From assembly GCF_036227605.1 (NCBI RefSeq), contig NZ_CP109487.1, positions 7,985,001-8,049,000 of the forward strand: a stretch of DNA of 64,000 nt, in the 5' to 3' direction. Made by a program: the position numbers and the translations under genes. Shown here in pieces: positions 8,704-54,854 of this stretch. Position 1 is the first letter of the stretch; the number at the start of each line of letters is the position of its first letter. Under the pieces are notes generated by a model, which saw only the letters and a list, made by a program, of their open reading frames with translations, had not been told where the DNA came from and did no database searches. This stretch comes from Streptomyces sp. NBC_01439. GTDB lineage: Bacteria; Actinomycetota; Actinomycetes; Streptomycetales; Streptomycetaceae.

Positions 8704-8846
8704 CTGAAATGGACCGTACCCCTCCGGTAGGTCGGGAGAATCTCAGGAGCAAGAGGCGGTGATCGTCCGTGCGGGCGGGGGTGAGTGAACGGACCCCTGT
8801 CGTAGGGCGGTTCACCGATCCCCCCAGTACCGTGAGAGGCACCACG

Positions 8847-37100: not shown

Positions 37101-40100
37101 CCGGACTGGTCACCTACCTGCTCGACGACCGGCTCCGACCGGTCCCGCCGGGCCGGGTGGGCGCCATCTACGTCGCCGGCGACCAGGTCTCCCTCGGCTA
37201 CCTGGGCCGCCCGTCCCTCACGGCGGGCCGGTTCGTCGCGGACCCGTTCGCGGCCGACGGCTCCCGCATGTACCACACGGGCGACCTCGCCCTCCGTACG
37301 CTCGACGGCGAGCTGGAGTTCGCCGGCCGGGCCGACGACCAGGTGCAGCTCAAGGGCTTCCGCATAGAGCTCGGTGAGGTGGAGTCCGCGATCCGGGAAC
37401 TCGACGGCGTGATCGACGCGGCCGTCACCGTGGCCGACAGCGCGGACCACCTGGTGGCGCACGTCGTGGCCCGGGTCCCCTTCGACACCGCCGCCCTCGC
37501 CGCGCTGCTGGCCCCGAAGCTGCCCGTCCACATGGTCCCCGGCCTGGTCCTGCCCGTCGACGCCCTGCCGCTGACGGTCAACGGCAAACTGGACCGCAAG
37601 GCCCTGACCGCACGCGCCGCACCGCACGACGCACCGGCCGCCACGACCGGATCCGCCACCGGATCCACGGCCGCGTCCGCGCTCACCGCCCTGATCGACA
37701 TCTTCACCGAGACCCTGCCCGGCACCGCCGTCGACGGCGACAGCGACTTCTTCCGGGCCGGTGGCGACAGCATCCTCGCCATCACCGTCGTCAACCGGGC
37801 CAGGGCCCTGGGCCTCGCGATCGCCCCCCGCGACGTGTTCCTGCTCAGGACCCCGCGCGCGCTCGCCGAGCACCTGGCGACGCACACCCCGCGCCCCGCG
37901 ACGCCCGGCGCGCCCGCCGCCGCCCCCCGCGAGGACGGCCCGCTGACACCGACCCCGATCATCCTGCGCCGGCGCGAACTCGGCGGATCCCTTGCCCGGT
38001 TCGCCCAGGCCCGAGCCCTGGTCACGGCCGAGGGGACCGGTCACGCCGACGCCGAGCGCGCCGCGAACGCCGTCGTCGCCGCCCACCCGGCCCTGCGGCT
38101 GCGGCTGCGCACCGAGCACGGGGTGTGGGCCCTGCGCACCGAACCGGCCCGCGCGGTCACCGTCGTACGCAGCGACGCGCCCGACGCGAGCGCCGCCGCG
38201 GACGAAGCCGCCGGACGGCTCGACCCCGAGACCGGGGAGGTCATCGCGTTCACCTGGCTGGACGCGACCCGGACCCTCGTGGTCACCGTGCACCACCTCG
38301 CCGTCGACGCCGTCTCCTGGCTGATCCTGCTGGACGACATCGACACCGCCCTGCACGGGAATCCGCTCGCGCCGCCGACCACCTCCTACGCCGAGTACGC
38401 GCAGGCACTGGCCGACCGAGCGGCCCACGAGAGCGACGGCCTCGGGCACTGGATCACCACCCTCCAGGCACCCCCGCTGCTGCCCGTGGCCGAGCGGCCG
38501 CGCGAGACGAAGGTCGTCCTCGCGCCCGAGGTCAGCGACCAGGTGACGCGCACCGCGCCCGCCGCACTCGGGGTCGGCCTCACCGAACTGCTGTGCGGCG
38601 CGCTGCGCACGGCGCTCACCCGCATCCAGCCCGCGCCCACCGACCTGGCGATCGAGCTGGAGCGGCACGGCCGGATCCCGGCCTCGCCGCACCACGACTA
38701 CACCCGTACGGTCGGCTGGTTCACCGCCATCGCCCCCGTGCGCCTCACGGCGCACACCGACCCCGTCGCCGCGGCCCGCGAGGTCCTCGAACGCCAGCCG
38801 GACGAGCGCGCGCACATCGCGTACGGCGGGCTCCGGTACCTCAACCCGCAGACGGCCCCCCTGCTCACCGCCCGCCCGCAGGTGCTGTTCAACTACCTGG
38901 GTCGGGGCAGCGAGTCGCAGGCCCTCCACGTCACCGGCGTCGACGAGGGCGGCCCGTACGCCGTCGAGGTCAACGCCTGGACCGACGCGGCCACCGGAAG
39001 CCTGCACGCGGTCTTCACCCTCGTCGAGGGCGTACCCGACGAGATCACCGAGCACTGGCGCGCCGCCCTGGAACACATCGCGGTCGCCGCCACGACCGCC
39101 GAGCGCACGGCCCCGGTCACCCCGCTCCAGCGCGGCCTGTTCTTCCAGGCACAGCTGGCGGGCCCGGCCGGACACTACGTCGCGCAGAGCTGGTTCACCT
39201 TCGACCGGCGTCTGGACACCGACGCGCTGGCCGAGGCGATGGCCTGGGTGATCGCCCGGCACCCGGTCGTGGGAGCCGGCTTCACCACCGACGACGACGG
39301 CAGGGCCGTCCAGGTCCTGGGCGCCGGCGGGCGGGTCGGTGTCCGTACGATCGACCTCGCGACCGACGCGGAGGTCGACGCCCTGCTCGCCCGCGACCGC
39401 GACACCGGATTCGACCCGGGCGAGCCGCCGCTGATCCGCCTGACCGTGGTGCGGCTGCCCGGCGACCGCGACGGCCTGCTGCTCAGCTACCACCTGCTGC
39501 TGTGGGACGGCTGGTCCCGCGAGATCGTGCTGCGGGACCTGTTCGACGCCTACGAGGCGGCCGTGGCGGGCGAGCTGACGCCCCCGACCCCGGCCACGCC
39601 CGGCTTCGAGGACTACGCCCGGGCGCTCGACGCCAAGGACCCGGCCGTCTCGGAACGCTTCTGGGCGCAGCACCTGACCGGCCTCCCCGGCCCGACGCTG
39701 CTCGCCGGGCCGACGCCGGCCCTGGTCGACGCGCTGCCGCGGACGCTCGTGCGCACCCTCTCCGCCGAAGCGTCACAGCTGCTGCGGGACCTCGCCCGCA
39801 CCCACGGCGTCACCCTCAACTCGGTGCTGACCGGCGCCTTCGGGCTGCTGCTCGGCGCCCGCACGGGCCGCGCCGACGCCGTGTTCGGCGTGACCGTCTC
39901 CGGCCGCGAGGGCGAGGACCTCTCCGAGGTCGTCGGCGTCCTGCTCAACACCGTGCCCATGTGGACCAGGGCCCGGCCGGACGACACCGTCCGGGAGTAC
40001 CTGACGGCCGTACAGGCGGCCCGGGTCGAGGCGATGGAGCACGAGCACCTCGGGCTCGGCGAGATCCAGCGGGCCGGCGGCCACGACACCCTGTTCGACA

Positions 40101-42193
40101 ACCTGTTCGTGCTCCAGAACTTCCTGGACATGGAAGCCTTCGCCGAGATGAACACCCGGCACGGCATCACCGCGGTACGGGCCGACGACTCCACCCACTA
40201 CCCGTTCACCTGGGTCGTCACCCCCGGCGACCGGCTCACGGTCAAGCTGGAGTACCGCGACCACGACACCGGGGCGGCCGAGGGGCTCCTCGACGACTAC
40301 CTGGACCTGCTCGGAGAGCTGGCCCGCTCCACCGGGCCGCTGGGCGCGCTGCCGGGCGCGGGGCCCGAGCCGGTGCCCGCCGTACGCACGGAGGTCGGCA
40401 CGGACACCGTCGTCGACCGGTTCGACCTGGCGGCCGAGCGCGATCCGGGGCGGGTCGCGCTCGTCGCCCACGGCCGGACCATGACCTTCGAGCGGCTCCG
40501 GGACCGCAGCCGCGAGCTGGCGGGCGTGCTCGCCGCACGCGGCATCGGACCCGAGACGACGGTGGCCCTCGCCGTCCCGCGCTCCCTCGACTCGATCGTC
40601 GCGCTCTTCGCCGTACTGCGCGTGGGCGCCGCGTACGTGCCGCTGGAGCTGGACCATCCGGACGAGCGGATCGCCGCCATCGTCGCGGACGCCCGCCCGG
40701 AGGTGACCCTCACCGTGAGCTCCGTGTCGCCCCGGTTGACCAGCGACCTGATCGAACTGGACCGGCCCCTGCCCGGGGCCGAGCCGTTCGTGACCTTCGC
40801 ACCCGAGGACCCGGACCGCCTGCGCCACCCCGCCTACACGATCTACACGTCCGGATCCACCGGCAGGCCGAAGGGAGTGGTGACCGAGTACGCCGGTCTC
40901 ACCAACATGCTGATCAACCATCAGCGCCGGATCTTCGAGCCGGTGCTGGCGGACCACGGCCACCGGGTCTTTCGCATCGCCCACACCGTGTCCTTCGCCT
41001 TCGACATGTCGTGGGAGGAGCTGCTCTGGCTCGCCGACGGCCACGAGGTGCACATCTGCGACGAGGAACTGCGCCGCGACGCCCCGCGCCTGGTCGAGTA
41101 CTGCCTGGAGCACGGGATCGACGTCATCAACGTGACCCCGACCTACGCGCAGCAGCTGGTGGCCGAGGGCCTGCTCGACCACCCCGAGCGGCGGCCGGCC
41201 CTGGTGCTGCTGGGCGGCGAGGCCGTCACCCCGACCCTGTGGCAGCGGCTCGCCGAGACCGAGGGCACGGCCGGCTACAACCTGTACGGACCCACCGAAT
41301 ACACCATCAACACCCTGGGCGTCGGCACCTTCGAATGCCAGGATCCGGTGGTGGGCGTGGCCATCGACAACACGGACGTGTACGTCCTGGACCCGTGGCT
41401 GCGGCCGCTGCCGGACGGCGTCCCCGGCGAGCTGTACGTGGCGGGCATCGGCATCGCCCGCGGCTACCTCGGGCAGCCCGCCCAGACCGCGGACCGGTTC
41501 GTCGCCTGCCCGTTCGGTGCACCCGGCGCACGCATGTACCGCACCGGGGACCTGGTGGCCCGGCGGCCCGACGGGAACCTGATGTACCTGGGCCGCACCG
41601 ACCAACAGGTCAAGATCCGCGGACACCGCGTCGAACTGGGCGAGGTAGAGGCCGCGTTCGCCGCGCACCCGGCCGTGCGGTTCACCGCCGCGGTCGCCCA
41701 GCCCGACCCGCAGGTCGACGGCGCCTACCGGCTGGCCGCCTACCTCGTACTCGGGGGCCCGGACGGCTCCGACGGCTCCGACGGCTGTGACCTGGCGGCG
41801 GTCGCCGCCGAGGTGGGAGCCGGGCTGCCGGACTTCCTGCGCCCGACGCACTACGCCCAGGTGGACCGCATCCCGCTGACCGTGAACGGCAAGGCCGACA
41901 CCAAGGCCTTGCCGGAGGCCAAGCCGCTCGGCACGCTGACCACGGCGGGGGAGCGCGGACCGCAGACCGAGACCGAGACCGTCGTGTGCGAGTTCTTCGC
42001 CGAAGCACTCGACCTGGACGACGACGAGGTGAGCGCGTTGAGCGATTTCGTGTCCCTGGGAGGGCACTCCATGCTGGCGGTGCGGCTGATCGGCCTGCTC
42101 CGCCGGGAGTACGGTCCTGTGATCACGGTCCGTGATCTGTTCACGTTGCGAACTCCGGAAATGATTGCCCGTCACCTCGATGAAAACTCCTGA
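31166..42193 (+). CDS. cchH: Three-module coelichelin-type nonribosomal peptide synthetase, CchH-like
   Basis: A 3675-residue NRPS with order A-PCP-E / C-A-PCP-E / C-A-PCP and no thioesterase. Carrier serines are at about 685 ('LGGDSILAI'), 2202 ('AGGDSILAI') and 3635 ('LGGHSMLAV'). The E domains have '[10 protein letters not shown]' (853) and '[10 protein letters not shown]' (2376). The C domains have 'HHIIADGWS' (1339) and '[10 protein letters not shown]' (2775), where the first His is Tyr. I read the ten-residue specificity codes as DINYWGGIGK for A1, DFWNVGMVHK for A2 and DMENLGLINK for A3. These fit formyl-hydroxyornithine, threonine and hydroxyornithine in coelichelin. Coelichelin is a tetrapeptide made by iterative use of module 1. 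Release is expected to be by the esterase at 43906-44991. The first ~140 residues before A1 are not a recognisable full domain. Confidence 0.96.
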
Positions 42194-43880
42194 CACGCAG
42201 CGGCCCCGACCGGGGTCCGACATCCTCAAGACCGCCCTGCGCCGCAACATCGGCGCCATGACCTGGGGCACCGTCCTCATGGGCCTCTACCAGGCCGGTG
42301 AGACCGCCTTCCCCATCGCGCTCGGTCTGATCGTCGAGCACACGATGCAGGACCGCAGCCCCGGTGCGCTCGCCCTGTCGATCGGCGCGCTGGCCGTGAT
42401 CATCACGACCGTGTCGCTGTCGTGGCGGTTCGGCATGCGCATCCTGCAGAAGGCCAACACGACCGAGGCGCACCGCTGGCGGGTGCGGGTCGCGGACTGC
42501 GGGCTGGAGCCGGTCGCCAGGGACGCCGGCCTCAAGTCCGGCGAGGTGCTGACCATCGCCACCGAGGACGCCGACCAGACGGCCGACATCATCGAGGTGG
42601 TGCCGCTGCTGATCAGCTCACTGGTCGCCGTGCTGGTCGCGGCGGTCGCCCTGGGACTGGCCGACGTGCGGCTCGGCCTGTTGGTGATCGTGGGCACCGC
42701 CCTGATCCTCACCGTCTTGAGCGTGATGTCCCGCCGGATCGGCTCCAGCACCCGCGAACAGCAGGCCCGGGTGGCCCGGGCGGGCGCGAAAGTGGCCGAT
42801 CTGATCACCGGCCTGCGCCCGCTGCACGGCTTCGGCGGCAACCACGCCGCCTTCCGGTCCTACCGGAAGGTCAGCACGGAGGCGAAGCACCAGGCGATCA
42901 CCGTGGCCGGGGTGAACGGTGCCTACACGGGCACGGCGACGGCCCTCAACGCGGCGCTCGCCGCCGGCGTGACCCTGACGGCCGGGTGGCTGGCCTTCAA
43001 CGGCGGAATCACCATCGGGGAGCTCGTCATGGCCGTCGGGCTCGCCCAGTTCATCATGGAACCGCTGAAGTTGTTCTCGGACATGCCCAAGTACGTGATG
43101 ATGGCGCGCGCTTCGGCCGAGCGCATGGCGCTGGTGCTGAGCGCGCCCCCGGTGGCCACCCACGGGCCGGAGCGCCCGGCCGCCGGAGGTGGCCTGGAGG
43201 TCGACTGCGTCCGGTACGGGGCCCTGCGCGCCCTGAAGTTCCAGGTCCCGGCGGGCGAGTTCGTGGCGATCGCCGTCTACCAGCCGCGGGCGGCGGCCGA
43301 CCTCGCCGCGATCCTGGCCGTGAAGGTCCCGCCGCACGCGTACGAAGGAGCGGTGCGGGTCAGCGGGGAGGAGCTCGCCGCCCTGTCGATCGAGGCGGTC
43401 CGCGCGCACCTGCTGGTGAACCCGTACGACGGGGAGATCTTCGCGGGCACCCTCCGCACGAATATCGACCCGTCGGGCACCAGCCGCACGGTCGCCGAGG
43501 CCGTCGAGGCGTCCATGCTGACCGACGTCGTCGCCCTCCACCGCGAAGGACTCGACCACGGGGTCCGCGACCGAGGCGCGAACCTCTCCGGCGGCCAGCG
43601 CCAACGGCTGTCCCTGGCCCGCGCCCTGGCCGCCGACGCCGACGTCCTCGTCCTGCACGATCCGACCACGGCCGTGGACGCGGTCACCGAGCAGCTCATC
43701 GCACGCAACATCGCGGAGCTGCGCCGGGGCCGCACCACGGTCGTGATCACCAGCAGCCCGGCCCTCCTGGACGCCGCCGACCGCGTGCTCGTCCTGGACG
43801 ACGGGGTCATCACGGCCGAGGACACCCACCGCAACCTCCTCGCCGGAGACGAGGAATACTGCCTGGCGGTGGCCCGCTGA
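42180..43880 (+). CDS. cchI: ABC exporter half with intact signature but degenerate Walker motifs, CchI-like
   Basis: A 566-residue half-transporter starting at ATG 42180, which overlaps the end of the NRPS gene by 14 bases; a TTG at 42165 is an alternative. Six membrane segments occupy about 20-305. In the ATPase domain Walker A is unrecognisable ('[15 protein letters not shown]'), Walker B reads '[12 protein letters not shown]' (HD instead of DE) and the H-loop His is lost ('VITSSPALL'). The signature '[16 protein letters not shown]' is perfect. This is the mirror image of CchG, so the pair forms one functional composite site. It is the last gene of the plus-strand operon and converges on the esterase gene. 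Confidence 0.9.
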
Positions 43881-43905
43881 CCCGTTGAACCCCGCCGGTC
43901 ACGGC

Positions 43906-44991
43906 CTAGCCGAGGGCCCAGGCCACGTCCCGGAGCAGGGCCTGGCGCCAGCCCGCGCGGTCGTGGCCCGACGCCGACCGGGAGGCCCGCACGGTCGCTC
44001 CGGACCGCTCGGCCAGGGCCTCGACCAGCTCGCAGTGGGGGAGCATCCGCGTCTCGTGTTCCCCCACGTCGAAGGCGATCCGCAGGCCGGACAGGTCCGG
44101 GCGCTCCCGCAGGCGTGCGGCGACGGAGCCGCCGACCGGGCCGCCGAGGGGGTCCGCCGACCGCACGGCGCCGGGCGTCCACCACAGCGAGGCCGACTGG
44201 CACGCCACCCGGGACACCAGGTCCGGGAACTCCAACGCCGCGTACACCGCGCTCAGCCCGCCCAGGCTCTGCCCGGCGACCACCAGGCGGTCCCCTTCCA
44301 CGGGTACCCCGGACTCCGCGACCAGCGGCAGCAGTTCGTCCCGGACCGCCTCCCACAGCTCCGGCCGGCACCCGAACTCGGCCTCCCGGTCCTTCGTCGG
44401 CAGGAAGACGAGGGTGACCGGGGGCATCTCGCCGGCGGCGACGGCGGAGTCGAACGCGGTCACGGCCGGGTGCAGGTACAGCCAGTCGTCCCCGTCCAAC
44501 AGCAGGACCACGGGTCCGCCGCCGCCCGCCGGGTGGACCCGTACGGTCCGCCGCCCGCCGAGCCGTTCGCTCGCCCAGCGGAGCCGGGTCCGCGGGAGGG
44601 GCAGTACGTCGTCGGCCCCGACGGCGGGCCAGTGCGGTTGGGCCGGAGCGTCCGGGGTGGCGGCGACAGACCGGTCGCTTCCCGCTCCGACCGGGTTGAA
44701 CGGGTCGGCGTACGCGGCGTCGTCGACGAGGAACTGGTAGGTGACCCGCAGCCGCGCGGGCATGCGGACCTCGGCGTACCAGCAGTCCGTGTCGCCCCAC
44801 CGGCGCAGGGGGACCTCCGGCGACCAGCTCTCGAAGCCGATCCGGGCCTCGGCGCCCCGCCACAGGAACAGGGTGGTCCAGCCGCCGCCCTCGGCGGGCA
44901 CCGCCCCCGGCCCCGCGGCCGCCGCCCAAAACTCCTCGGACCCCGGCTCACCGGGCAGCCCGTACGCGGCGAAGACGGTCTCCGGGGGCAT
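43906..44991 (-). CDS. cchJ: Siderophore-releasing esterase, CchJ-like (enterochelin esterase family)
   Basis: A 361-residue cytosolic alpha/beta hydrolase of the Fes/enterochelin-esterase family, with start ATG 44989-44991 behind AGGAGA. The N-terminal Ig-like domain (about 1-130) contains 'TTLFLWRGAEARIGFES' and 'VTYQFLVDDAAYADPFNP'. The hydrolase domain has the nucleophile elbow 'VAGQSLGGLSAVYAALEFPD', and a His near the C-terminus in 'SASGHDRAGW' completes the triad. In the coelichelin pathway CchJ is the candidate for releasing the tetrapeptide, because the NRPS lacks a thioesterase. A role in hydrolysing the ferric complex is the alternative. Its own iron box lies 20-38 bases upstream. 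Confidence 0.92.
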   Translation of the reverse strand: MPPETVFAAYGLPGEPGSEEFWAAAAGPGAVPAEGGGWTTLFLWRGAEARIGFESWSPEVPLRRWGDTDCWYAEVRMPARLRVTYQFLVDDAAYADPFNPVGAGSDRSVAATPDAPAQPHWPAVGADDVLPLPRTRLRWASERLGGRRTVRVHPAGGGGPVVLLLDGDDWLYLHPAVTAFDSAVAAGEMPPVTLVFLPTKDREAEFGCRPELWEAVRDELLPLVAESGVPVEGDRLVVAGQSLGGLSAVYAALEFPDLVSRVACQSASLWWTPGAVRSADPLGGPVGGSVAARLRERPDLSGLRIAFDVGEHETRMLPHCELVEALAERSGATVRASRSASGHDRAGWRQALLRDVAWALG

Positions 44992-45105: not shown

Positions 45106-45996
45106 TCAGCCTGCTGCCGGCGGCTTCCTGAGCAGGGGTATCAGTGGCGTACCGGCCGCCGGGACGCGTTCCAGGACGCCGCCCGCGAAGACGTCGTAGA
45201 GCGGCAGCGTTTCCAGGTGGACGTAGCCGATGTGGCAGTCGCAGGTGGTCAGCGGGCACGGACGCGGGCCGAGCGCGGTCCGGTAGGTGCCGTCGTAGAG
45301 GTTGCCGAGTTCGGCGCGGACGAAGTGGCAGCGGCGGACCGTGCCGTCGCCGTCCACCGAGATCACCGACTCGCCGGTGCGGCACGGCAGTCCGGCCGAG
45401 CGGTGCGGGTGCCGGCTGTACGGGAACAGCGGGTCGAGGGCGGTCCACGTGTCGGCCTCGGCGTCGGTGTAGGTGTGGCCGTCGGCCGCGTTCACCCACA
45501 GGTAGACGTGGGCGGGCAGTGCGGCGCGCAGTCTGCGGGCGTGCTCCAGGTTCTCGGGGAGGCCCACGATGCCGACGCTGTGGCGGATGCCCCGGTCGGC
45601 GAGGTCGCGCAGCTTGGCCAGGAAGCGGTCGTACGGGGTCTGCCCGGGGTGGTAGGTGCACCACAGGGCGAGCGTGGCGGGGTCGGCCTCCGCGAGCCAG
45701 TCCGTGCGGCAGCTGAGGTTGGTCTGGATGGCGACGCGGTCGACGTGCGGCTGGTGCGAGAGGTCGACGAGGGCACGGCGGTACCAGGAACGGACGAGTC
45801 CCTCGCCCCACGGGGTGAACAGGAGGGAGAGCCGGTCCTCCCTGGCACGGGAGCGCGCCCAGCCGGTGAACCGTTCGAGGGCGGCCCGGTCGGCCCGCAG
45901 CTGGGCCGTGGTGTCGCGCCGCTTGGCGAACGGGCAGTAGGGGCAGTCGTAGTCGCAGGAGGCCAGCGGGCCGCGGTAGAGCAGGGTGAGGTCCAC
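45106..45996 (-). CDS. STM4011-family radical SAM protein
   Basis: A 296-residue radical SAM enzyme from the GTG at 45994-45996. The cluster motif 'CDYDCPYC' (Cys14, 18, 21) binds the SAM [4Fe-4S] cluster. The C-terminal third has five more Cys ('GLPCRTGE', 'RRCHFVR', 'RPCPLTTCDCHIGY'), a SPASM/twitch-like arrangement that suggests an auxiliary Fe-S cluster, as in peptide- or protein-modifying radical SAM enzymes. The gene begins 5 bases after the stop of the STM4012-type gene and is the last of a five-gene operon. Family assignment rests on similarity to the Salmonella STM4011 type and on the context. The substrate is unknown. Confidence 0.88.
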   Translation of the reverse strand: MDLTLLYRGPLASCDYDCPYCPFAKRRDTTAQLRADRAALERFTGWARSRAREDRLSLLFTPWGEGLVRSWYRRALVDLSHQPHVDRVAIQTNLSCRTDWLAEADPATLALWCTYHPGQTPYDRFLAKLRDLADRGIRHSVGIVGLPENLEHARRLRAALPAHVYLWVNAADGHTYTDAEADTWTALDPLFPYSRHPHRSAGLPCRTGESVISVDGDGTVRRCHFVRAELGNLYDGTYRTALGPRPCPLTTCDCHIGYVHLETLPLYDVFAGGVLERVPAAGTPLIPLLRKPPAAG

Positions 45997-46001
45997 GGCG
46001 G

Positions 46002-47372
46002 CTACTTGGCCTCGTAGGCGGCCATCGCGGCCCGTACGGCCGGTGAGAACAGCTCGGGGCCGAGCGCGTCGGAGTGGGCGAGGCCCTCCGGGGTGAGGCG
46101 CAGGAGCGGGCCGGTGCCGTCTTGGTCGAGCCAGCCGCGGGCGGCGAACGCGGCCAGTTCGGCCGGGAAGTCCTCGTGCGGGTCGGCGCCGAACCGCTCC
46201 CGGTAGTCGGCGACCGGCATGCCCTGCGCCTGGAGCAGCGACTGGAGGAGGTGGCGGCGGCGCGCCTCGTCGCCGTTGGTGGGCCGGCCGTGTACGGCGC
46301 GGGTGAAGTCGTCGGTGGCGGTGTAGTCGTCGATGATCCCGCGGATCTCGCCCATGTCGACCGCGTAGTCGAACGAGTAGTGCAGCGCGGAGGTGTAGGA
46401 CCGGGCGCCACAGCCCAGGCCGATCATGCCGTCGGTCTGGCAGGCGTGGTCGTCCGGGCCCCGGGGCGCCGTACCGGCCAGCCGGAACATGCGCATCGAC
46501 ACCTGTTCGTAGCCGTGCGCGAGGAGGTGGTCGCGACCCTGCCGGTACAGGCCGAGGCGCTGCTCGTCCCAGGCCCGGTCGGTCACGGCGGTGCGCCGGG
46601 CGAGCCCGGTGAGCGGGCGGACGTACAGGGGGTACAGGTACAGCTCCTCGGGGCGCCAGGCCAGGGCGGCGTCCAGGGAGGTGCGCCAGGTGGCGGGGGT
46701 CTGGCCGTCGATCCCGTAGATCAGGTCGATGTTGAGGACGGGGACGCGGGCGTCGCGGATGCGGCCGAGCGCCGCCTCGACGTCTGCGCGGCGCTGGGGG
46801 CGCACGGCCGCCCGGGCCTCCTCGGGGAGGAAGCTCTGGACGCCGATGCTGACGCGGGTGGCGCCGCGCTCGGCGAGGACGGCGAGCCGGTCGGCGGTGG
46901 CGGTGGCGGGGGAGGTCTCCACGGAGAGCGGGACGGCGCGCAGGTCGGCGCCCATGCGCCGTTCGGCGATGTCGCAGAGCCGTTCCAGTTCGGGGGCCGT
47001 GAGGAAGGTGGGCGTCCCACCGCCGAAGGCGGCGTTGGCGAAGGAGACCGGGCCGTCGTCGCCGAGGGCGTCGCGGACGGCGGTGGCCTGGCGCTCCAGG
47101 GCGTCGAGGTAGCGGCCGGTGAGCCCGTCGGGGGCGCCGATGCGGGTGAAGAGGTTGCAGAAGCCGCAGCGGACCTCGCAGAAGGGTATGTGGAGGTAGA
47201 GGGAGAGGGCGTCCTTGCGTTCGCCGTGCCACAGGTCGCGCAGGGCGGGCCGCTCGGGCAGCGGCCGGTAGGCGGTCTTGTGGGGGTAGGCGTACACGTA
47301 GGCGTGGTACGGGCGGCCCGACGGCGGCGCGGTGGGCGCGAGCGGGGCGGGCGCGGGTGCGGGGGCGGTCAT
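46002..47372 (-). CDS. STM4012-family radical SAM protein (HemN-like)
   Basis: A 456-residue protein resembling the oxygen-independent coproporphyrinogen oxidase family. It has the SAM-cluster motif 'HIPFCEVRCGFCNLF' (Cys65, 69, 72) and the family motifs 'FGGGTPTFL', 'SVETSPAT' and 'VSIGVQSF'. A HemN-like C-terminal domain includes 'GYEQVSMRMFRL', 'MIGLGCGARSYTSAL' and 'LTPEGLAHSDALG'. The N-terminus starts with a Pro/Ala-rich stretch. The start ATG 47370-47372 overlaps the upstream stop (ATGA). Its linkage to the STM4011, 4013, 4014 and 4015 types argues against a haem-biosynthetic role. A radical-based modification or a HemW-like cofactor role is possible. Confidence 0.9.
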   Translation of the reverse strand: MTAPAPAPAPLAPTAPPSGRPYHAYVYAYPHKTAYRPLPERPALRDLWHGERKDALSLYLHIPFCEVRCGFCNLFTRIGAPDGLTGRYLDALERQATAVRDALGDDGPVSFANAAFGGGTPTFLTAPELERLCDIAERRMGADLRAVPLSVETSPATATADRLAVLAERGATRVSIGVQSFLPEEARAAVRPQRRADVEAALGRIRDARVPVLNIDLIYGIDGQTPATWRTSLDAALAWRPEELYLYPLYVRPLTGLARRTAVTDRAWDEQRLGLYRQGRDHLLAHGYEQVSMRMFRLAGTAPRGPDDHACQTDGMIGLGCGARSYTSALHYSFDYAVDMGEIRGIIDDYTATDDFTRAVHGRPTNGDEARRRHLLQSLLQAQGMPVADYRERFGADPHEDFPAELAAFAARGWLDQDGTGPLLRLTPEGLAHSDALGPELFSPAVRAAMAAYEAK

Positions 47373-48214
47373 GCGGACGGCTCCAGGAAGAAGTGGGCGT
47401 ACGGCACGGTCCAGACGGCCTCGTGGGCGAGGCGGTGGCCGGTGTAGCCGTCGTCGCCGTAGGTGGTGCCGTGGTCGGAGCAGACGATCGCGAAGCAGCG
47501 GCGGCGGGAGCTCATGGCGGTGAGGAGCCGGCCGATGTGCCGGTCGACGTACTCGAGGGCGGCGGCGTGGGTGGCGCGCGTGTCGCCCGCTTCGGCGGTG
47601 GCGCCGGCGAGGTGGAACCAGTTGGGCTGGTGCAGCGCGGAGGCGTTGACGAAGAGGAACAGCCTCTGGTCGGCGGGGAGCGCGGCCACGACCTGTTCGG
47701 CCCGCTCGACCTGCGCCTCGAAGGAGGTCGGCGAAGCGACGCCGAAGGCCGGTTCCCAGTGGCTCTCCTGGAACATGCCGGGGAGCACGTCACCCAGTGC
47801 GCCCTGCTTGTTGAAGAAGCCGACGCCGCCGATGCACACCGTGCGGTACCCGGTCGCGGCCAGGCCCGACACCAGGTCGGGCGTGTCGAACACGTAGGTG
47901 CGGCCGGCGGTGCTCTCGCTGCCGGCGAAGCGGGCGGCGAACAGCCGGGGGTGCGGGCCGGGCCGGGCGGGGGTGGGCAGGAAGCCGGCGAACATCGCCT
48001 GGTGGGAGGCGTAGGTGAAGCTGCCGGGGGCGTGCCGCTCCTCCCAGACGCCCCCGGGCAGGTGCCGGGCCAGGTTCGGAATGCGTCCGGCGGCGGCCAG
48101 CTCGACGGCGACGTCGTGGCGCAGGGTGTCCAGGGTGAGCAGGAGCAGGTCGTCGCGGCCGACGACCTCGTTCATGTCGGGGAGCGGGAGCGCTGGGGTC
48201 TCAGGCGGGTGCAC
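47369..48214 (-). CDS. STM4013/SEN3800-family hydrolase (alkaline-phosphatase superfamily)
   Basis: A 281-residue protein with GTG start 48212-48214 behind GAGGAA, overlapping the upstream gene by 14 bases; an ATG at 48175 is a less likely start. 'LLLLTLDTLRHDVA' is the N-terminal metal-binding strand, and 'GSFTYASHQAMFAGFLP' holds the position of the nucleophile (Ser/Thr). 'AIVCSDHGTTYGDDGYTGHR' has the second metal-binding Asp-His pair. This is the layout of sulphatase/phosphopentomutase-type enzymes. No signal peptide is present, so it acts in the cytoplasm, unlike most sulphatases. A phospho- or sulpho-ester hydrolase within the STM4011-4015 pathway is the best description. The substrate is unknown. 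Confidence 0.88.
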   Translation of the reverse strand: MHPPETPALPLPDMNEVVGRDDLLLLTLDTLRHDVAVELAAAGRIPNLARHLPGGVWEERHAPGSFTYASHQAMFAGFLPTPARPGPHPRLFAARFAGSESTAGRTYVFDTPDLVSGLAATGYRTVCIGGVGFFNKQGALGDVLPGMFQESHWEPAFGVASPTSFEAQVERAEQVVAALPADQRLFLFVNASALHQPNWFHLAGATAEAGDTRATHAAALEYVDRHIGRLLTAMSSRRRCFAIVCSDHGTTYGDDGYTGHRLAHEAVWTVPYAHFFLEPSA

Positions 48215-49325
48215 GGTGGTTCCTCGCGGGGTGGTGCTGTACGTGTCTTCTGATGGCGGCGGCCACTTGCGCGCCGTAGGTGTCCCGGCCCTCGGCGCCG
48301 CTGCCGGGCAGTCCGGTCAGGCCCGGTAGGAGGTCGCCGAAGGCGTTGACCTCGGCGACGGCGAACCGGCGCCAGCCGACGGCGGGCAGCAGGTCGACAC
48401 CGACGCACAGGGTGCCCGGGAAGCAGGACGCGGCCCGCTCGCAGGTCCGCAGGGCCTCGGCCCATGCGGGGCCCGCGGCCCGGACCGCGGCGGCGAGGTC
48501 GCCGCGCCGGCCGCCGAGGTGGAGGTTGGTCATGGGGGTCCGGCTGGTGCGGACCACGGCATGGGTGGCGCGACCGGCGACGACGACCACGCGCAGGTCG
48601 GCCGACCCGTCCCCGAGGGAGGCCTTGGGCCACCACCGTTCGAGGTGGAGCCCGTCCGGGGCGAGGGCGTCGACCAGCGCGGCGACCTCCGGTTCGTGCG
48701 TGAGGCGCCGTACCCGCAGGGAGTTGTGGAGCCGGCCGCCCTCCGCGCCCTCCACGGAGGTGGTCGCCCTGATCCGGCCCCCGCCGGCCGTCTCGACCGC
48801 GACGACACCGGAGGCCGAGGATCCGTGGGCCGGCTTCAGGAACACCCGCGGCATGCCGTGCGCGGACATGAGGGCCCGTACGTCGTCCCAGCCGCGTACC
48901 GCAGCCGTGCCGCCGGAGGTCGGCGACTGCGGAACCGGGACCCCGGCGCGGGCGAGGACCTCGTGGCAGAGCCGCTTGTCGAAGAGGACGGCCAGCTCGT
49001 CGGGGTCGTCGAGGCGCCGGCCGCCGGTCAGCGTCCGGACGGCCGCCGTGAAGGCGGCGTACCAGCGGGCTCCGCCCTCCACCCGGGTGGGGTCTCCGGC
49101 ACCCCGCAGGAGCCGGTCGACCTCGGCGTTCTCCCCGGGCGACTCGATCCGTACGATCTCGTCGGCGGCGAACGCGGCGCCGCCGCCGCGCAGGACGTCC
49201 GTCCAGGGCACGACGCGCGGCGCGGGCAGCCCGGCATCGCGCACCGCCCCGGAGAACAGGGCGACGCGCCGGTTCTCCGGGTTGCCGACGACCGCCCAGC
49301 GCGGCGGTGGTGCGTGGTCCGTCAT
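48201..49325 (-). CDS. STM4014-family protein, ATP-grasp-like ligase
   Basis: A 374-residue protein with start ATG 49323-49325, 10 bases after the stop of the LRR gene. The sequence has the features of an ATP-grasp enzyme: a central segment 'LFDKRLCHEVLARAGVPVP', the ATP-binding lysine strand 'RVFLKPAHGSSASGVVAVE' with a Gly/Ser loop, and the C-terminal metal-binding strand 'RFAVAEVNAFGDLLPGL'. ATP-grasp enzymes activate a carboxylate as acyl-phosphate and couple it to an amine or thiol, so a peptide-bond-forming or capping step is the natural inference. The fold call is mine from motifs, and the family itself is named only by its Salmonella member. Confidence 0.85.
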   Translation of the reverse strand: MTDHAPPPRWAVVGNPENRRVALFSGAVRDAGLPAPRVVPWTDVLRGGGAAFAADEIVRIESPGENAEVDRLLRGAGDPTRVEGGARWYAAFTAAVRTLTGGRRLDDPDELAVLFDKRLCHEVLARAGVPVPQSPTSGGTAAVRGWDDVRALMSAHGMPRVFLKPAHGSSASGVVAVETAGGGRIRATTSVEGAEGGRLHNSLRVRRLTHEPEVAALVDALAPDGLHLERWWPKASLGDGSADLRVVVVAGRATHAVVRTSRTPMTNLHLGGRRGDLAAAVRAAGPAWAEALRTCERAASCFPGTLCVGVDLLPAVGWRRFAVAEVNAFGDLLPGLTGLPGSGAEGRDTYGAQVAAAIRRHVQHHPARNHRAPA

Positions 49326-49335
49326 GGCCCGCGCG

Positions 49336-50295
49336 CTACTCGCCGACGGCGACGAAGCGCCAGACCCGGCCGTCGTCCTCGTCCTCTTCGGCGTGGCCGC
49401 GGTTGAGGTCGAGGGCGACGCCGGCGCCGCCCAGGACCTCCAGGAGGCGCTCGCGCAGCGGCCCACCGAGGTAGTTGTGGTGCAGGTCCAGCTTCTTCAG
49501 GTGCGTCAGGGGCTGGCCGGAGAGCAGGGCGGCGCCGCCCTGCTCGGTGAGGACGCCCATGGACAGGTCGAGGGTCTCCAGACGGGCGACCACGGGCGCG
49601 GACGCGACGGCGGTGGCGATCTCGTCCTGGATGTCGCTGTTGCGCAGGCCCAGGTGACGCAGGTGCGGCAGGCGGTCGCCGTCGAGGATCGGCGCCACGT
49701 CGGTGATCTCCGCGTCACCGCCGTATTCGCTCGTGCCGAGCCACAGGTCCAGGTGGACCAGGGCGGGCAGGTCGCTGGCGGCGACGCCGCGGACCGCCTC
49801 GGCGGGCATGCCGCCGGTCTCGACGGTCAGGGAGCGCAGCTTGTGGTGCGTGACGGCGGGGAAGACCAGCCCGGAGCCACCGCGCACGCCGAACTCCTCC
49901 AGCTCCGGGAAGCCGTCGAGGAGCGGGCCGACGTCGCTCTGGTTGATCCACGAAATTTCGCACTCCTCGGAGTGCATGTCCCCGAGAAACAGGCCGCGCA
50001 GGGCGGGCAGGTCCGGGCGTGCGTCGAGGAGGGCGCCGATGATCTCCTCGGGCCCGCTGTCGTAGGCCTCCTCCCAGGCACCGACGACGATCGCACGGAC
50101 CTTCGTCGTGTCGACCGCGGCGCGGAACCGGGCGAACACCTCGGTCCAGCTCTCCTCGCTGTCGTAGCTGTCGCTGGAGACCCGCCAGGCGACGGAGTCC
50201 GCCGCGGGCAGGGGAGTCGTGTCAGCGTCCTCCCGGCTCGGGAAATCGAAGACGGGCAGCCCGCACGATTCCGTCAGGTGTCTCGGGTGACTCAT
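49336..50295 (-). CDS. STM4015-family leucine-rich-repeat protein
   Basis: A 319-residue protein with start ATG 50293-50295; the same frame extends upstream, but sequence conservation of the family is expected to begin near 'MSHPRHLTESCGLPVFDF'. The second half shows leucine-rich repeats of the ribonuclease-inhibitor type, for example 'LPHLRHLGLRNSDIQDEIAT', 'LETLDLSMGVLTEQGGAALL' and 'LTHLKKLDLHHNYLGG'. It is the first gene of the five-gene operon and has no signal peptide. LRR proteins bind partners, so it could present the substrate to the two radical SAM enzymes or be the substrate itself. Both are inference. Confidence 0.87.
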   Translation of the reverse strand: MSHPRHLTESCGLPVFDFPSREDADTTPLPAADSVAWRVSSDSYDSEESWTEVFARFRAAVDTTKVRAIVVGAWEEAYDSGPEEIIGALLDARPDLPALRGLFLGDMHSEECEISWINQSDVGPLLDGFPELEEFGVRGGSGLVFPAVTHHKLRSLTVETGGMPAEAVRGVAASDLPALVHLDLWLGTSEYGGDAEITDVAPILDGDRLPHLRHLGLRNSDIQDEIATAVASAPVVARLETLDLSMGVLTEQGGAALLSGQPLTHLKKLDLHHNYLGGPLRERLLEVLGGAGVALDLNRGHAEEDEDDGRVWRFVAVGE

Positions 50296-50514: not shown

Positions 50515-50841
50515 ATGTACCGGCAGGGGGACGTGCTGATCGTGCCGCTCGACGAGTCGGCGGTGCCGCCGCACGCGGTCGACGCGGACCAGGAACCACG
50601 GGACGGGCGGGGCCGGATGGTCCTCGCGCTGGGCGAGGTCACCGGGCACGCCCACGCCGTCCTCGGGCCCGGGCGGCTCGTCCGCGAGGCGGGAGCCTTC
50701 GGCCCGCTGCTGCTCCACCTCCCGGACGGCGGGCGGGTGGTGCACGAGGAGCACGCCGCGATCCCCCTGCCCAAGGGCTGGTACCGGGTCGTGCGGCAGC
50801 GGGAGTACATACCCGGATCCGTGCGGATCGTGGCGGACTGA
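50515..50841 (+). CDS. Conserved protein of unknown function (108 residues)
   Basis: A 108-residue protein, start ATG 50515 behind GGGGGAAGGGG. It begins 'MYRQGDVLIVPLDES' and contains 'LALGEVTGHAHAVLG', 'GRVVHEEHAAIPLPKGWYRV' and the ending 'RQREYIPGSVRIVAD'. The predicted fold is a small all-beta barrel, and the two conserved His positions (GHAHA, EEHA) could bind a metal. No signal peptide or membrane segment is seen. The DUF6745-like gene follows closely on the same strand, and the pair is divergent from the STM4011-4015 operon. I know no function for this family. Confidence 0.75.
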   Translation: MYRQGDVLIVPLDESAVPPHAVDADQEPRDGRGRMVLALGEVTGHAHAVLGPGRLVREAGAFGPLLLHLPDGGRVVHEEHAAIPLPKGWYRVVRQREYIPGSVRIVAD

Positions 50842-50875
50842 CAGCGTGTCGGACAGTGGGGGAACGGGGATCGTG

Positions 50876-51910
50876 ATGACGGACATCGACGTGTGGAGGG
50901 CGGCCGCGGCAGCCACCGGACCGGCCGATCGGGCGGCCGCGGAGGCCGGGGTGCGCCTCGCGTACCGGGCCGCGGGCCTGGCGGAGCCGGAGCGGATCGT
51001 CTGGGCGGACTCGCCCCGGGAGGCGGTGCGCCTGCTCGGCGGGGACGACGGGCCGTGCGGGCCGGCCGGGCGCGGGCGCGGCGTACGGGAGACGGTGCGC
51101 AGTGCGCCGTGGGCTGCCGAACGGGACCGGGTGCAGCGGCAGCTCGGCCCGCAGGGCTGGGGGCGGCACTGGAGCGCGACGGGCGGCCGCCTGTGGGAGA
51201 ACACGGAACGCCTGGCGGAACGGATCCGCACCGGTCTCGTCGAGGAGTTGACGGTCGGGGCGGCCGCCCCCGCGGCCGAGGAGCGCTCGCTGCGCCTGCT
51301 GCTCCTGGACGCGGTGCTCGGGCAGCACGACGCGGCCTGGCTGTGCGCCTTCGACACGCAGGAGGGCACGCCCCTGCACGGACTGGGCGTGCTGGCCCGA
51401 TCGGCCGGCTGGTGGTGGCCCTACGAACGGCTGGCCGTGCTGTGCGAGCGCCCGGTGGAGCTGCACCGCGACGAGGCCGGCAGGCTGGACCGCGGGGACG
51501 GTCCGGCGCTGTCGTTCCCCGACGGGTTCGCACTGCACGCGTGGCGGGGCATGCCCGTTCCCGCCGCATTCCTGGCGGGACTGGACACCCTGACGCCGGA
51601 GCGGATCCGGGAGGAGGAGAACGCCGAACTGCGCCGGGTGATGCTGGAGTTCTACGGGTACGACCGCTATCTGCGGGAGTCGGGGGCCGCCCCCGTGCAC
51701 CGGGACGAGACGGGGATCCTGTGGCGCATACCCATGCCGGACGACGAGGCCGTCGTGATGGTGGAGGTCGTCAACTCGACGCCGGAGCCCGACGGCACCA
51801 GCCGCACCTACTGGCTGCGGGTACCGCCGACGACCCGGACGGCCCGCCAGGGCGTGGCCTGGACGTTCGGCCTCGGAGCCGAGGCGTACGCACCGCTCCG
51901 GGAGACGTGA
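50876..51910 (+). CDS. DUF6745-like protein
   Basis: About 344 residues from ATG 50876; a GTG at 50846 in the same frame would add ten residues and shorten the gap to the previous gene to 4 bases. The N-terminal half is Ala/Arg-rich and helical. The C-terminal half has the segments I associate with DUF6745: 'ALSFPDGFALHAWRGMPVP', 'RRVMLEFYGYDRYLRESG' and the ending 'YWLRVPPTTRTARQGVAWTF'. No catalytic motif is apparent. Together with the preceding 108-residue protein it forms a two-gene unit of unknown function. It converges on the lanthipeptide locus 2 cyclase, with 150 bases between stops. Confidence 0.75.
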   Translation: MTDIDVWRAAAAATGPADRAAAEAGVRLAYRAAGLAEPERIVWADSPREAVRLLGGDDGPCGPAGRGRGVRETVRSAPWAAERDRVQRQLGPQGWGRHWSATGGRLWENTERLAERIRTGLVEELTVGAAAPAAEERSLRLLLLDAVLGQHDAAWLCAFDTQEGTPLHGLGVLARSAGWWWPYERLAVLCERPVELHRDEAGRLDRGDGPALSFPDGFALHAWRGMPVPAAFLAGLDTLTPERIREEENAELRRVMLEFYGYDRYLRESGAAPVHRDETGILWRIPMPDDEAVVMVEVVNSTPEPDGTSRTYWLRVPPTTRTARQGVAWTFGLGAEAYAPLRET

Positions 51911-52060: not shown

Positions 52061-53251
52061 TCAAGGCCGCCCGAGGTCGACGAAGGGGCGTTCGCCCGGG
52101 CACAGGAGCCGGGAGAGGAACAGGCCGATGCCCGCCGAGCCGGTCGCGTAGTCGTGGGCGATCCGGTTGAGCCAGCGGCCGGGGAACGCGATGCCGTCCG
52201 CGTTCTCGACCCGGAACCACAGGATGGTTCCGGCGATGTCACGAGCCCTGTCCCGGTACTCCCGCTCGCCGGTGAAGGAGTACATGTCCAGCATGAACTC
52301 GCCGATGCCGGCCAGGCCCTCGAAGAGGCCGGGGGCGTAGGAGTACTTGACGAAGGTGTCCTCCGCCACCCGGCGGGCGAGCTCGCCGTACCGCTGGATG
52401 CCGAGCAGGTGGTGGAACCGGATCAGTACGCTGCCGACGCCGGCGCCCCCGTGGATCCAGTACGGGTACAGGACGGGGTCGTCCTGTACCCGCTGCCATT
52501 GGAGGCCGAGACCGCTCTCGCTCACGTGGGCCAGATCGAACTCCAGGGCCCTGACGGCGTACGACCGGAAGCGGGCGTCGCCGGTCATCAGGTGCAGGTG
52601 GAGGAGGAAGAGGGCGATGCCGCTCGCCCCGTGACCGTACCCGTAGTGGATGCTGTCGTCGTGGGAGGACCGCCAGTAGCAGGAGTCGCCCTCCTGACGG
52701 GCGGTCCTGAGCAGGTGTTCCCCCGCCTGCACGGCGCGGTCGAGGTGGACCTGCTTACCGGTCCTCGCGTGGAAGCGCAGGGAGGCCAGCCCCCACCCGG
52801 CGACCCCGAAGAACATGCCCGGTTCGTCGTACAGCAGCGGCGACGCCTGGAGCATCGCCATTACCGCCTCGCCCCTGTCCTCCCAGCCGAGATCGTGGAA
52901 GGCCCAGGCGATGCCGGCCAGCCCGACGTACAGCCCGGGCGGATAGGTGTCCGTGCCGAGGCGCTGCCCCAGCATCCAGGAGGTCACCTCGGCGGGCAGT
53001 GCGGCGGCGGGCTCCCGGGCGCCCGCCCGGGAACGGAGCAACAGGGCCGGCCCGCAGGCTCCGTAGGCCACGCTCAGCGGGTTCGTCGTGAACACAAGGT
53101 AGTCGGCGGGCCAGAGGCGGTCGGTGCGCCGTGCGTCGTGGGTGCGGAGCAGGGTGTGGGCGATGCCGGCGAGGGTGCGCCGGACCTCCGCGTCCGGGTG
53201 GGCCGGGGCGCCCCCTTCGGCCGCGAGGGCGTCGTTCGTCAAGGGGCGCAC
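52061..53251 (-). CDS. Stand-alone lanthionine cyclase (LanC-like, no zinc ligands), locus 2
   Basis: A 396-residue protein starting with GTG at 53249-53251, 4 bases after the stop of the lyase-kinase gene. It covers the cyclase portion of a LanKC: 'YVFTTNPLSVAYGACGPALL'-type opening and repeated barrel motifs 'GLAGIAWAFHDLG', 'YGYGHGASGIALFL', 'YWIHGGAGVGSVLIRF' and 'LFEGLAGIGEFMLD'. The zinc ligands WCxG and CHG of LanC are absent, as in class III cyclase domains. The N-terminal 60 residues align with the kinase-cyclase linker of the fused LanKC of locus 1, so the break lies in the linker. It is expected to act with the lyase-kinase on the peptide at 54914-55138. Confidence 0.88.
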   Translation of the reverse strand: MRPLTNDALAAEGGAPAHPDAEVRRTLAGIAHTLLRTHDARRTDRLWPADYLVFTTNPLSVAYGACGPALLLRSRAGAREPAAALPAEVTSWMLGQRLGTDTYPPGLYVGLAGIAWAFHDLGWEDRGEAVMAMLQASPLLYDEPGMFFGVAGWGLASLRFHARTGKQVHLDRAVQAGEHLLRTARQEGDSCYWRSSHDDSIHYGYGHGASGIALFLLHLHLMTGDARFRSYAVRALEFDLAHVSESGLGLQWQRVQDDPVLYPYWIHGGAGVGSVLIRFHHLLGIQRYGELARRVAEDTFVKYSYAPGLFEGLAGIGEFMLDMYSFTGEREYRDRARDIAGTILWFRVENADGIAFPGRWLNRIAHDYATGSAGIGLFLSRLLCPGERPFVDLGRP

Positions 53252-53255
53252 GGCG

Positions 53256-54854
53256 TCATCCGTCCTCCCAGTCGGCGAGCACGGATTTCGCCTCGTCCAC
53301 CCGGCCGGCGGCCAGGCACGACACGACGGACCTAACCCGGTCGGGGACGCCCAGGGCGACGAGCTCGTCGAGGATGAGGTCCTGCGCGAGGGGGTTGAGG
53401 GCGAAGAACGCGGTGGCGGGCACGACGCTGCTGTAGAGGAGCATGGCCGCGGCGTACCAGTCGTCGCACGGAAGGAGTCTGTCCCGGGAGGCGCGGTCCG
53501 GGTGGAGGAATCCGGGGGTGCCCCAGCGGGTGCCGTAGGCCAGGAGCGCCGCCTCGTCGTCCTCGTGGACCGCGCTCTCGAAGTCGATGAACCACATCCG
53601 GAGCGTCTCGGGGTCGATCAGGACGTTGTTCGGTGACAGGTCGCCGAGGACCACCCCGCGCGCATGCACCTCATCGACCATGTGGATCAGGCGGCCGACG
53701 ACCTCCCGGAAGCGGGGTACGAACCGTGCCACCCGCCCTTCGCGGCGGATGTACGGCGCGAGGATGACGTCGTCCCGTGCCCAGAAGTCGTGGAAGGCGA
53801 TGCCGTCCACGCGCTCCTCGACCAGAAAGGTGTGCTCCCACTCCTGGAAGAGGTCGACCGGACGCGGAACGAACTCCAGGCCCTCCAGCCGGCGCAGTAC
53901 CTCGTACTCGTGGCGCAGCATGTCGACCGAGTCGACCGTGCGGTTGCCGGACGTCCAGCAGTTGGTGAGGCGCCGGGCCTCCTTGACGACGACGGGCGTG
54001 CGGGTGACGCGGTCCGTGCCGTGGTAGACGCCGCCGGCGTTGGAGAACGTCAGGGCGCCCTCGATGCGGTAGCGGCCGTCTCGGAGGGTGGCGGCCGGTT
54101 CCCCGGCCGGGCGCGCAGCGGAATCCTCCGCCGGTTCCTCCGCCGGTTCCTCCGCGAAGGGGTCGCGGACCCAAGGGGGCAGCCGGAAGTACGGCAGCCG
54201 CTCGTCGGCCACGTAGGTGCCGTCGGGGGAGACCAGGAACGTGCTGTGCGTGCCGTCGATGTTGAGCCGCCGCGGTGGCCGGAAGCCCCCGTACCGGTAG
54301 AAGAGGACCCTGCTGTCCCGGTAGCGGCGGTCCGACAGGACGTACGGGCCGTCGACCGGCTCGTCGACCGTCCGCCGGTACAGGGTCTCGATCAGCTCGA
54401 CGAAGACGTCCTCGTCGGGCGGATAGATCGTCATGAACTTGCCCGAGAAACCGCGTTCCTGGGTCTTCGAGTTGATCACGCCCAGCAGCACAGGATCGGC
54501 AGCGGTCTTGAACTCGACGCCGTTGTCCACGCACACGGGGACGACGAGATCGAACAGCCGCAAGGCGTGTGCGGGGGCGGAGGAGACGTGGATCTTGAAG
54601 CCTTGGGCGGGCGGCGGGGCCGTCCGCCGGGAGGAGTCCGCCACGCCCCTCACGCCCCTCATGCCCGTCGTGCCCGCCACCATCCGGGCGTGCAGCCACA
54701 CGTCACTGCGTTCCAGGGCCCAGGCGTCCGGCAGCAGCCGCTGCAGGGCGTCGCGGTACTGCGGGGTGATGGCCCGGCGGGACAGCGGCTCGTAGTGCCG
54801 GTCGTCGACGAGGCCGAAGAGGTGGTGGGCGGCCACGGCCGCCCGCTGTTCCAC
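53256..54854 (-). CDS. Lanthipeptide lyase-kinase (LanKC without its cyclase), locus 2
   Basis: A 532-residue protein from the GTG at 54852-54854. The lyase region (about 20-230) contains 'GFKIHVSSAPAHALRLFD', 'RGFSGKFMTIYPPDED' and 'VLSDRRYRDSRVLFYRYGGF'. The kinase region (about 250-520) contains 'LTFSNAGGVYHGTD', the lysine motif 'VVVKEARRL', the catalytic-loop equivalent 'GVVLGDLSPNNVLIDPE' and 'MWFIDFESAV' in place of DFG. It stops at the point where a class III synthetase would continue into its cyclase. It should phosphorylate and dehydrate the precursor at 54914-55138. A short hairpin separates it from the precursor gene. Confidence 0.88.
   Translation of the reverse strand: MEQRAAVAAHHLFGLVDDRHYEPLSRRAITPQYRDALQRLLPDAWALERSDVWLHARMVAGTTGMRGVRGVADSSRRTAPPPAQGFKIHVSSAPAHALRLFDLVVPVCVDNGVEFKTAADPVLLGVINSKTQERGFSGKFMTIYPPDEDVFVELIETLYRRTVDEPVDGPYVLSDRRYRDSRVLFYRYGGFRPPRRLNIDGTHSTFLVSPDGTYVADERLPYFRLPPWVRDPFAEEPAEEPAEDSAARPAGEPAATLRDGRYRIEGALTFSNAGGVYHGTDRVTRTPVVVKEARRLTNCWTSGNRTVDSVDMLRHEYEVLRRLEGLEFVPRPVDLFQEWEHTFLVEERVDGIAFHDFWARDDVILAPYIRREGRVARFVPRFREVVGRLIHMVDEVHARGVVLGDLSPNNVLIDPETLRMWFIDFESAVHEDDEAALLAYGTRWGTPGFLHPDRASRDRLLPCDDWYAAAMLLYSSVVPATAFFALNPLAQDLILDELVALGVPDRVRSVVSCLAAGRVDEAKSVLADWEDG

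Follow-up and report, generated by a model that had tools for sequence, protein, structure and literature searches.

Known systems that build on a protein C-terminus

Few routes are known in which a small molecule is made on the C-terminus of a protein. Among the described systems closest to the gene set considered here, namely the STM4015-STM4014-STM4013-STM4012-STM4011 operon at positions 45106-50295 of a 64,000-nucleotide stretch of Streptomyces sp. NBC_01439 (contig NZ_CP109487.1, positions 7,985,001 to 8,049,000; 'the window' is this whole stretch), is the amino-group carrier pathway (LysW with LysX/ArgX; Vzb22), in which a C-terminal Glu after an acidic stretch is paired with a ligase of the LysX/RimK fold, and further enzymes are encoded in the same operon. 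The excerpted text of PMC10433800 presents LysW as a small zinc-binding carrier protein with a C-terminal EDWGE motif. The corresponding excerpts of PMC10092738 describe the addition of glutamates by RimK to the C-terminus of RpsF, and those of PMC9303977 the pearlin (3-thia-amino-acid) pathways, in which building takes place at the C-terminus of an encoded carrier with the involvement of a radical S-adenosylmethionine (SAM) enzyme. Finally, BlsE, SkfB and SuiB are radical SAM enzymes with auxiliary-cluster domains.

The operon shares with the amino-group carrier pathway a protein ending in Glu after an acidic stretch (STM4015), a LysX/RimK-fold ligase (STM4014) and the presence of additional enzymes, but LysW is a 54-residue zinc-binding protein ending in EDWGE, whereas STM4015 is a leucine-rich repeat (LRR) protein of 319 residues ending in WRFVAVGE, and is therefore not counted among the LysW proteins. 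Also, the additional enzymes are, here, two radical SAM proteins and an enzyme of the alkaline-phosphatase fold. With RimK, STM4014 has in common the ATP-grasp fold, a TN/SNLH-type block and, as proposed below, action at a protein C-terminus; the target differs, and radical SAM and hydrolase genes are found at the locus. The resemblance to the pearlin pathways, as far as the excerpts describe them, lies in C-terminal building on an encoded carrier together with a radical SAM enzyme. In pearlin biosynthesis the ligase depends on tRNA and the carrier is a peptide, in place of which the operon encodes an ATP-grasp ligase and an LRR protein.

Our preferred reading, to which we assign a probability of roughly 0.57, is that STM4015 is modified covalently at its C-terminal Glu, as it would be in an amino-group carrier system, though one outside the LysW family. 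It builds on direct observations, namely the association of the genes, the constant end of the STM4015 tail and its loss off the operon, the predicted fold of STM4014 and the Cys set of STM4011. In particular, the constant tail end, its off-operon losses and the structural match of the ligase narrow an 'unknown pathway' to an STM4014-dependent modification of STM4015 which, if true, adds an LRR-type carrier and radical chemistry to the known C-terminal routes.

The C-terminal Glu of STM4015

STM4015 (49336-50295, minus strand; NCBIfam NF038076, 386.6 bits, cut-off 275) carries its eight-residue tail at 49339-49362 (minus strand), the codon of Glu319, the proposed attachment site, being 49339-49341. 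Glu is the last residue in 92/92 locus copies, i.e. in 91/91 copies from relatives and in that of the window. In the same set Arg is found at position -7 in 89/92 and Tyr or Phe at -6 in 88/92, and the tail mostly reads [W/Y]-R-[Y/F]-[P/V]-[A/S]-[V/L/I]-[T/G/S/A]-E (e.g. WRFVAVGE, WRYPSLTE), with Glu as its only invariant residue. E319 is also among the 19 invariant columns of an alignment (A3) whose members are as little as 28% identical to the window protein, and W74, E113, S115 and W116 are conserved in the body of the protein. The last residues of STM4014, STM4013, STM4012 and STM4011 vary. Among the best 120 of 2847 STM4015 homologues (the window's included), taken irrespective of genomic context, Glu is the final residue of 119, the exception being P0074 with Ala.

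An uncharacterised Bacteroides fragilis protein of known structure, PDB 2RA8, is matched by the A3 profile of STM4015 over positions 6-312 of 312 (E 2.1e-92). Its sequence ...DYSYPMITE ends at residue 354 of 362, and the eight extra C-terminal residues are probably a purification tag; since residues follow the Glu, the structure may have been unable to show a modification. Neither 2RA8 nor Q64V53 is mentioned in the literature searched, here and below a mostly non-subscription collection.

The protein is often present in more than one copy. Matches to STM4015 occur in 74 of 150 genomes of the window's genus, 35 of which have two or more (34 with at least two above the cut-off; the second match of G309 is split), and each STM4011-positive genome has one STM4011 above the cut-off, both copy numbers having been counted by eye. 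Where the locus holds a second STM4015 in tandem (L017, L019, L081, L088 and L091), this copy likewise ends in Glu. Several STM4015 copies per enzyme set form a pattern that carriers and precursor proteins can show.

What happens to the tail away from the operon is informative in this context. STM4015 passes its cut-off in 192, and STM4011 in 189, of 392 genomes of the genus, and comparison by eye gave, among the matches listed, seven genomes positive for the former and negative for the latter (G222, G263, G287, G491, G504, G527 and G546). In G527, whose assembly is fragmented, STM4014 is adjacent and the tails are normal. In none of the other six was STM4014 above its cut-off (STM4012 and STM4013 were not searched for), and five of these six lack the terminal Glu, with tails GPLTY, SIAV, EGLP, GPVSY and GRDF; the sixth copy, of G504, keeps it and adjoins an STM4014 gene with in-frame stops. 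Glu in 92/92 locus copies compared with 1/6 operon-less copies gives a Fisher p of 8.8e-8, which ignores kinship. Furthermore, of 16 off-operon copies picked by eye from the 150 genomes, the three in operon-less genomes (G222, G263 and G287) all lack Glu, while the 13 in operon-positive genomes keep it in 10 cases and have lost it in three (Fisher p 0.04 for the latter 13 against the operon-less copies, of which 1/6 keeps Glu, again ignoring kinship). A tree of 69 copies, computed with the tail excluded and with 5 of 47 Paenibacillaceae loci, places the losses in three lineages, all off-operon, that of G263 lying inside a clade whose other members retain Glu. The suggestion of the sequence-only reading that the LRR protein could be a carrier or substrate thus gains support from the invariant C-terminal Glu, the multiple copies and the off-operon losses.

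As a separate observation, one clade of off-operon paralogues (L130, L133, L134 and L148, from G222, G228, G273 and G491) has acquired a common new tail, VGP[LV][ST]Y, and the copy of G287 (L132), ending in VEGLP, falls within it. These may perhaps be repurposed LRR proteins.

The ligase, the radical SAM enzymes and the hydrolase

STM4014 (374 aa; 48201-49325, minus strand; NF038074, 449.7 bits, cut-off 175) was modelled with AlphaFold2 at a predicted local distance difference test score of 91.9, and the best structural matches of the model are ArgX:LysW, LysX and RimK, which upholds the ATP-grasp fold. Membership of the established families was rejected, as the protein is far below the cut-off of the LysX family (TIGR02144, 24.6 versus 275.6 bits) and below that of the RimK family (TIGR00768, 29.2 versus 143.4 bits).

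In STM4011 (296 aa, GTG start; 45106-45996, minus strand; NF038073, 412 bits, cut-off 200), the radical SAM motif C14-x3-C18-x2-C21 is invariant in 29/29 aligned proteins. The extra C-terminal Cys residues announced by the sequence-only reading are C205, C223, C247, C252 and C254, five positions likewise invariant in 29/29, so that the CxxxCxxC motif and C-terminal Cys of a twitch/SPASM-type protein are both present (3 + 5 invariant residues). The C-terminal region of SkfB is matched at sequence level (E 0.00097), and the modelled fold, nearest to BlsE, SkfB and SuiB, is the same overall. From sequence and model, STM4011 likely carries an auxiliary iron-sulfur cluster, and the motif on which this idea had been based has withstood structural comparison.

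STM4012 (456 aa; 46002-47372, minus strand; NF006067, 640.7 bits, cut-off 380) has C65-x3-C69-x2-C72 invariant in 8/8 diverse sequences and carries a HemN_C domain. It is neither HemN (122.3 bits, cut-off 324.95) nor HemW (120.2 bits, cut-off 205.4).

STM4013, also named STM4013/SEN3800 (281 aa from a GTG start; 47369-48214, minus strand; NF038075, 420.9 bits, cut-off 250), is an alkaline-phosphatase-superfamily protein in which D29, T67, D247, H248, H260 and H264 are invariant in 22/22 sequences; we take these to be the metal-site Asp/His and the Ser/Thr nucleophile positions of the superfamily. The Pfam Sulfatase model is matched with 32 bits (cut-off 25), and the profile matches both phosphodiesterases and sulfatases. 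The ester hydrolysis originally ascribed to this protein is a candidate activity, the residues appearing no less suited to a phosphodiesterase or phosphotransferase.

Proposed chemistry and competing explanations

The chemistry that we infer, including every step, their order, the attached group and the product, would run as follows. STM4015 would be the covalent carrier or substrate, its LRR body providing a docking platform. STM4014, judging from its fold, its motif and the tail of its partner, may activate a carboxylate of the C-terminal Glu and link to it an amine that is probably an amino acid. STM4011 and STM4012 would then alter the attached group or the adjoining tail residues, and STM4013, in what is the least certain step, might trim a phospho-group or release the product. 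A wider proposal, which we hold tentatively and at less than even odds, is that the operon represents a new class of carrier, in which an LRR protein holds a building block, amide-linked to the C-terminal Glu, for remodelling by two radical SAM enzymes, leading to a metabolite or cofactor-like product; the hosts of such a class would span Bacteroides, Salmonella, cyanobacteria, Deinococcus and actinomycetes.

A point weighing against covalent modification of STM4015 is that the proteins of the accessory pair adjoining the operon (described below) also have constant last residues, Asp in 28/28 copies of the small protein and Thr in 27/28 of the DUF6745 protein, which weakens the uniqueness of the STM4015 tail as a sign.

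The tail itself could instead be the core peptide ([WY]R[YF]xxxxE) of a system resembling those of ribosomally synthesized and post-translationally modified peptides, with the LRR body as an oversized leader, STM4014 closing a graspetide-type ester or amide, STM4011 introducing a cross-link and no outside group being added. This is unlikely in our judgement, although Foldseek ranks the graspetide ligase PsnB with the best matches of STM4014, STM4011 matches SkfB by sequence (E value as above) and both SkfB and SuiB by fold, and the aromatic residue and Arg of the tail are nearly constant. Indeed, the sole invariant residue of the tail is the last one; a donor-type Glu is present, but no Thr, Ser or Lys that could serve as acceptor is constant among the last eight residues (Thr, Gly, Ser or Ala occupies position -2), nor is Cys common there; and six annotated loci inspected by eye revealed no recurrent protease or transporter gene.

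It is still less probable that STM4014 modifies STM4015 without any small-molecule product being made. RimK structures are among the closest matches of STM4014, and LRR folds are binding scaffolds, so that a RimK-like tailing of a binding protein is conceivable, given that RimK glutamylates the C-terminus of RpsF (excerpts of PMC10092738); such a scheme would leave three tightly linked enzymes, two radical SAM proteins and one of phosphatase fold, without a task. In the last and most improbable explanation, STM4015 is a non-covalent scaffold or sensor that keeps the enzymes together, its C-terminal Glu docks, and the enzymes act on a small molecule in free form. This leaves unexplained the extra STM4015 copies per enzyme set and the match of STM4014 to ligases acting on protein C-termini, even if LRR folds usually bind partners, the conserved body residues W74, E113, S115 and W116 would suit docking, and the constant ends of the accessory proteins speak in its favour.

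Association and distribution of the genes

All five operon proteins pass their NCBIfam cut-offs, bearing out the five-gene operon that had been read from the sequence; its genes are ordered from STM4015 to STM4011 downwards from 50295 to 45106, all on the minus strand, and in the products Pfam recognises LRR repeats, the C-terminal domain of HemN and a hydrolase of sulfatase type. STM4015 and STM4014 are separated by 10 bases and STM4012 and STM4011 by 5, and STM4013 and STM4012 overlap by 4. How STM4014 and STM4013 meet depends on the start codon of STM4013. Counted from the GTG at 48214, the genes overlap by 14 bases; the ATG at 48175, which coincides with the beginning of the family match and would give 268 aa, leaves 25 bases between them. 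The claim of overlaps, or else gaps of at most 10 bases, holds with the former and fails with the latter. Among named homologues, the nearest come from Streptomyces (identity 93% for STM4015 and 95% for STM4014), an STM4015-family protein of S. venezuelae (P0012) also being listed, and the source genome is a single contig of 9.58 Mb.

By profile comparison, all five genes were matched in 84/88 relative loci, some matches being partial (e.g. STM4014 of L068, 149 bits). As the loci were located through STM4011, the count tests the other four genes, and as the profiles were seeded with the window and plasmid loci, these match by construction; STM4012-profile matches below 300 bits were dropped prior to counting, which took out the HemN gene of L016, the L015 and L071 remnants and, in L073, one of the two halves of a split STM4012. 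The genome scan confirmed at least 432 relatives, the best 80 of which, ranked by likeness to a Paenibacillus query, were used, 47 of them (L020-L066) being Paenibacillaceae. The four exceptions are one broken copy and three fragmentary or contig-end loci. The former, L015 (Bacteroides finegoldii plasmid, 8572-10530), has STM4013 cut short and STM4012 reduced to a remnant; its STM4011 reading frame, of 521 aa, carries a long C-terminal extension. L067 is from a fragmentary assembly, a same-named strain having STM4014 and STM4015 on a 4,917-base contig (P0153, P0025), and L071 and L098 are contig ends. The order is not always kept, L093 having STM4013-4012-4011 and the accessory pair on one strand and STM4014-4015 on the other.

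A tblastn search of a plasmid collection gave 13 records for STM4011 and the identical 13 for STM4014; their hosts are Streptomyces, Embleya, Nonomuraea, Methylobacterium, Deinococcus, Paenibacillus, Bacteroides and Salmonella, and the loci of 8 of these records were analysed. The best 80 relatives include Acaryochloris (a cyanobacterium), Undibacterium, Blastocatellia, an Armatimonadetes bacterium and the planctomycete Fimbriiglobus. In a sample of the phylum only 5/198 genomes, all of the window's genus, pass the STM4011 cut-off, so the set is scattered and rare. Within the 150 genomes of the genus STM4011 is above its cut-off in 70, STM4015 in 71 and both in 68, and 5 have either one alone; thus, independent occurrence of the families, a possibility raised in the sequence-only reading against a common pathway, is not what is found. 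With the ATP-grasp and auxiliary-cluster comparisons reported above, the idea of a biosynthetic or protein-modifying pathway is supported.

Two other readings were rejected. For a phage or mobile element, none of 25 pattern matches in viral contigs was confirmed as a relative; in a phage collection two records matched, a 5,922-base unannotated Salmonella phage record and one naming a Salmonella Infantis strain. For an anti-phage defence system, 6/7 proteins have no match among the PADLOC models, STM4012 giving only a weak one of 19 bits.

The five families, which occur in many phyla, are named but have no known product. Their NCBIfam model names give no function, and the displayed model information for STM4011-STM4015 mentions no accessory pair and no constant tail end. 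In the part of the literature accessible to the search, the STM gene names occur only in single-gene table rows, work elsewhere being possible. The STM4011-4015 family names and SEN3800, and the joint terms radical SAM, ATP-grasp, leucine-rich repeat and operon, were not found in the same collection.

The divergent accessory pair

Earlier description of the locus stopped at five genes, which are present, and overlooked an adjoining divergent pair on the plus strand. The description as a complete five-gene system is right in that 84/88 loci match all five genes, but in part of the genomes there are seven. The first gene (50515-50841) encodes a protein of 108 aa with invariant GExTGHxH and HxEH motifs, and the second (50846-51910) a DUF6745 protein of 354 aa (PF20530, 390.4 bits). 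They are present in 27/88 relative loci, never apart, and adjoin the operon in Methylobacterium, Deinococcus, Nonomuraea and Streptomyces fungicidicus.

Strong DUF6745 matches (E below 1e-100) are found in 57/150 genomes of the genus, 56 of which are STM4011-positive above the cut-off. The remaining one, G332, has a truncated STM4011 nine bases away (at G332:C81:71559-72605, a remnant covering profile positions 137-278 stands beside a full DUF6745 domain match) and no STM4015 match, and its core genes seem to have been deleted with the accessory DUF6745 surviving. Conversely, 14/70 STM4011-positive genomes are without a strong match, and the pair is, hence, an optional accessory. Besides these strong matches, weaker relatives of DUF6745 (E about 1e-25 to 1e-30) are found in five genomes without an above-cut-off STM4011, one with a decayed operon (G262) and one where the operon is present (G286).

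No NCBIfam match, and no Pfam match above the cut-off, was obtained for the small protein. H45, H47, H77 and H80 are invariant in 28/28 copies, suggesting metal binding, and the protein looks like a member of an undescribed metal-binding family. No role is claimed for the DUF6745 protein because its N-terminal half is not constant and the Deinococcus protein gives only sub-threshold LRR matches; DUF6745 was not found in the literature collection.

Neighbouring genes

A link of the operon to the surrounding biosynthetic genes was set aside because no NRPS (non-ribosomal peptide synthetase) or lanthipeptide genes are annotated beside it in the six annotated loci inspected. At 52061-54854 (minus strand), the window contains a class III lanthipeptide synthetase (LanKC) as two open reading frames, a RamC_N-kinase part at 53256-54854 (profile 3-444 of 833) and a LanC-like part at 52061-53251 (profile 482-832), which represents either a natural split or a frameshift. 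On the other side, the region 31166-44991 contains a very large open reading frame of 3675 aa that, from its translation alone, reads like an NRPS, an ATP-binding cassette transporter (PF00664/PF00005) and an enterochelin-esterase-like protein (PF00756; PRK10439 175.7 bits, below the cut-off of 222), which together suggest a siderophore-type cluster adjoining the operon.

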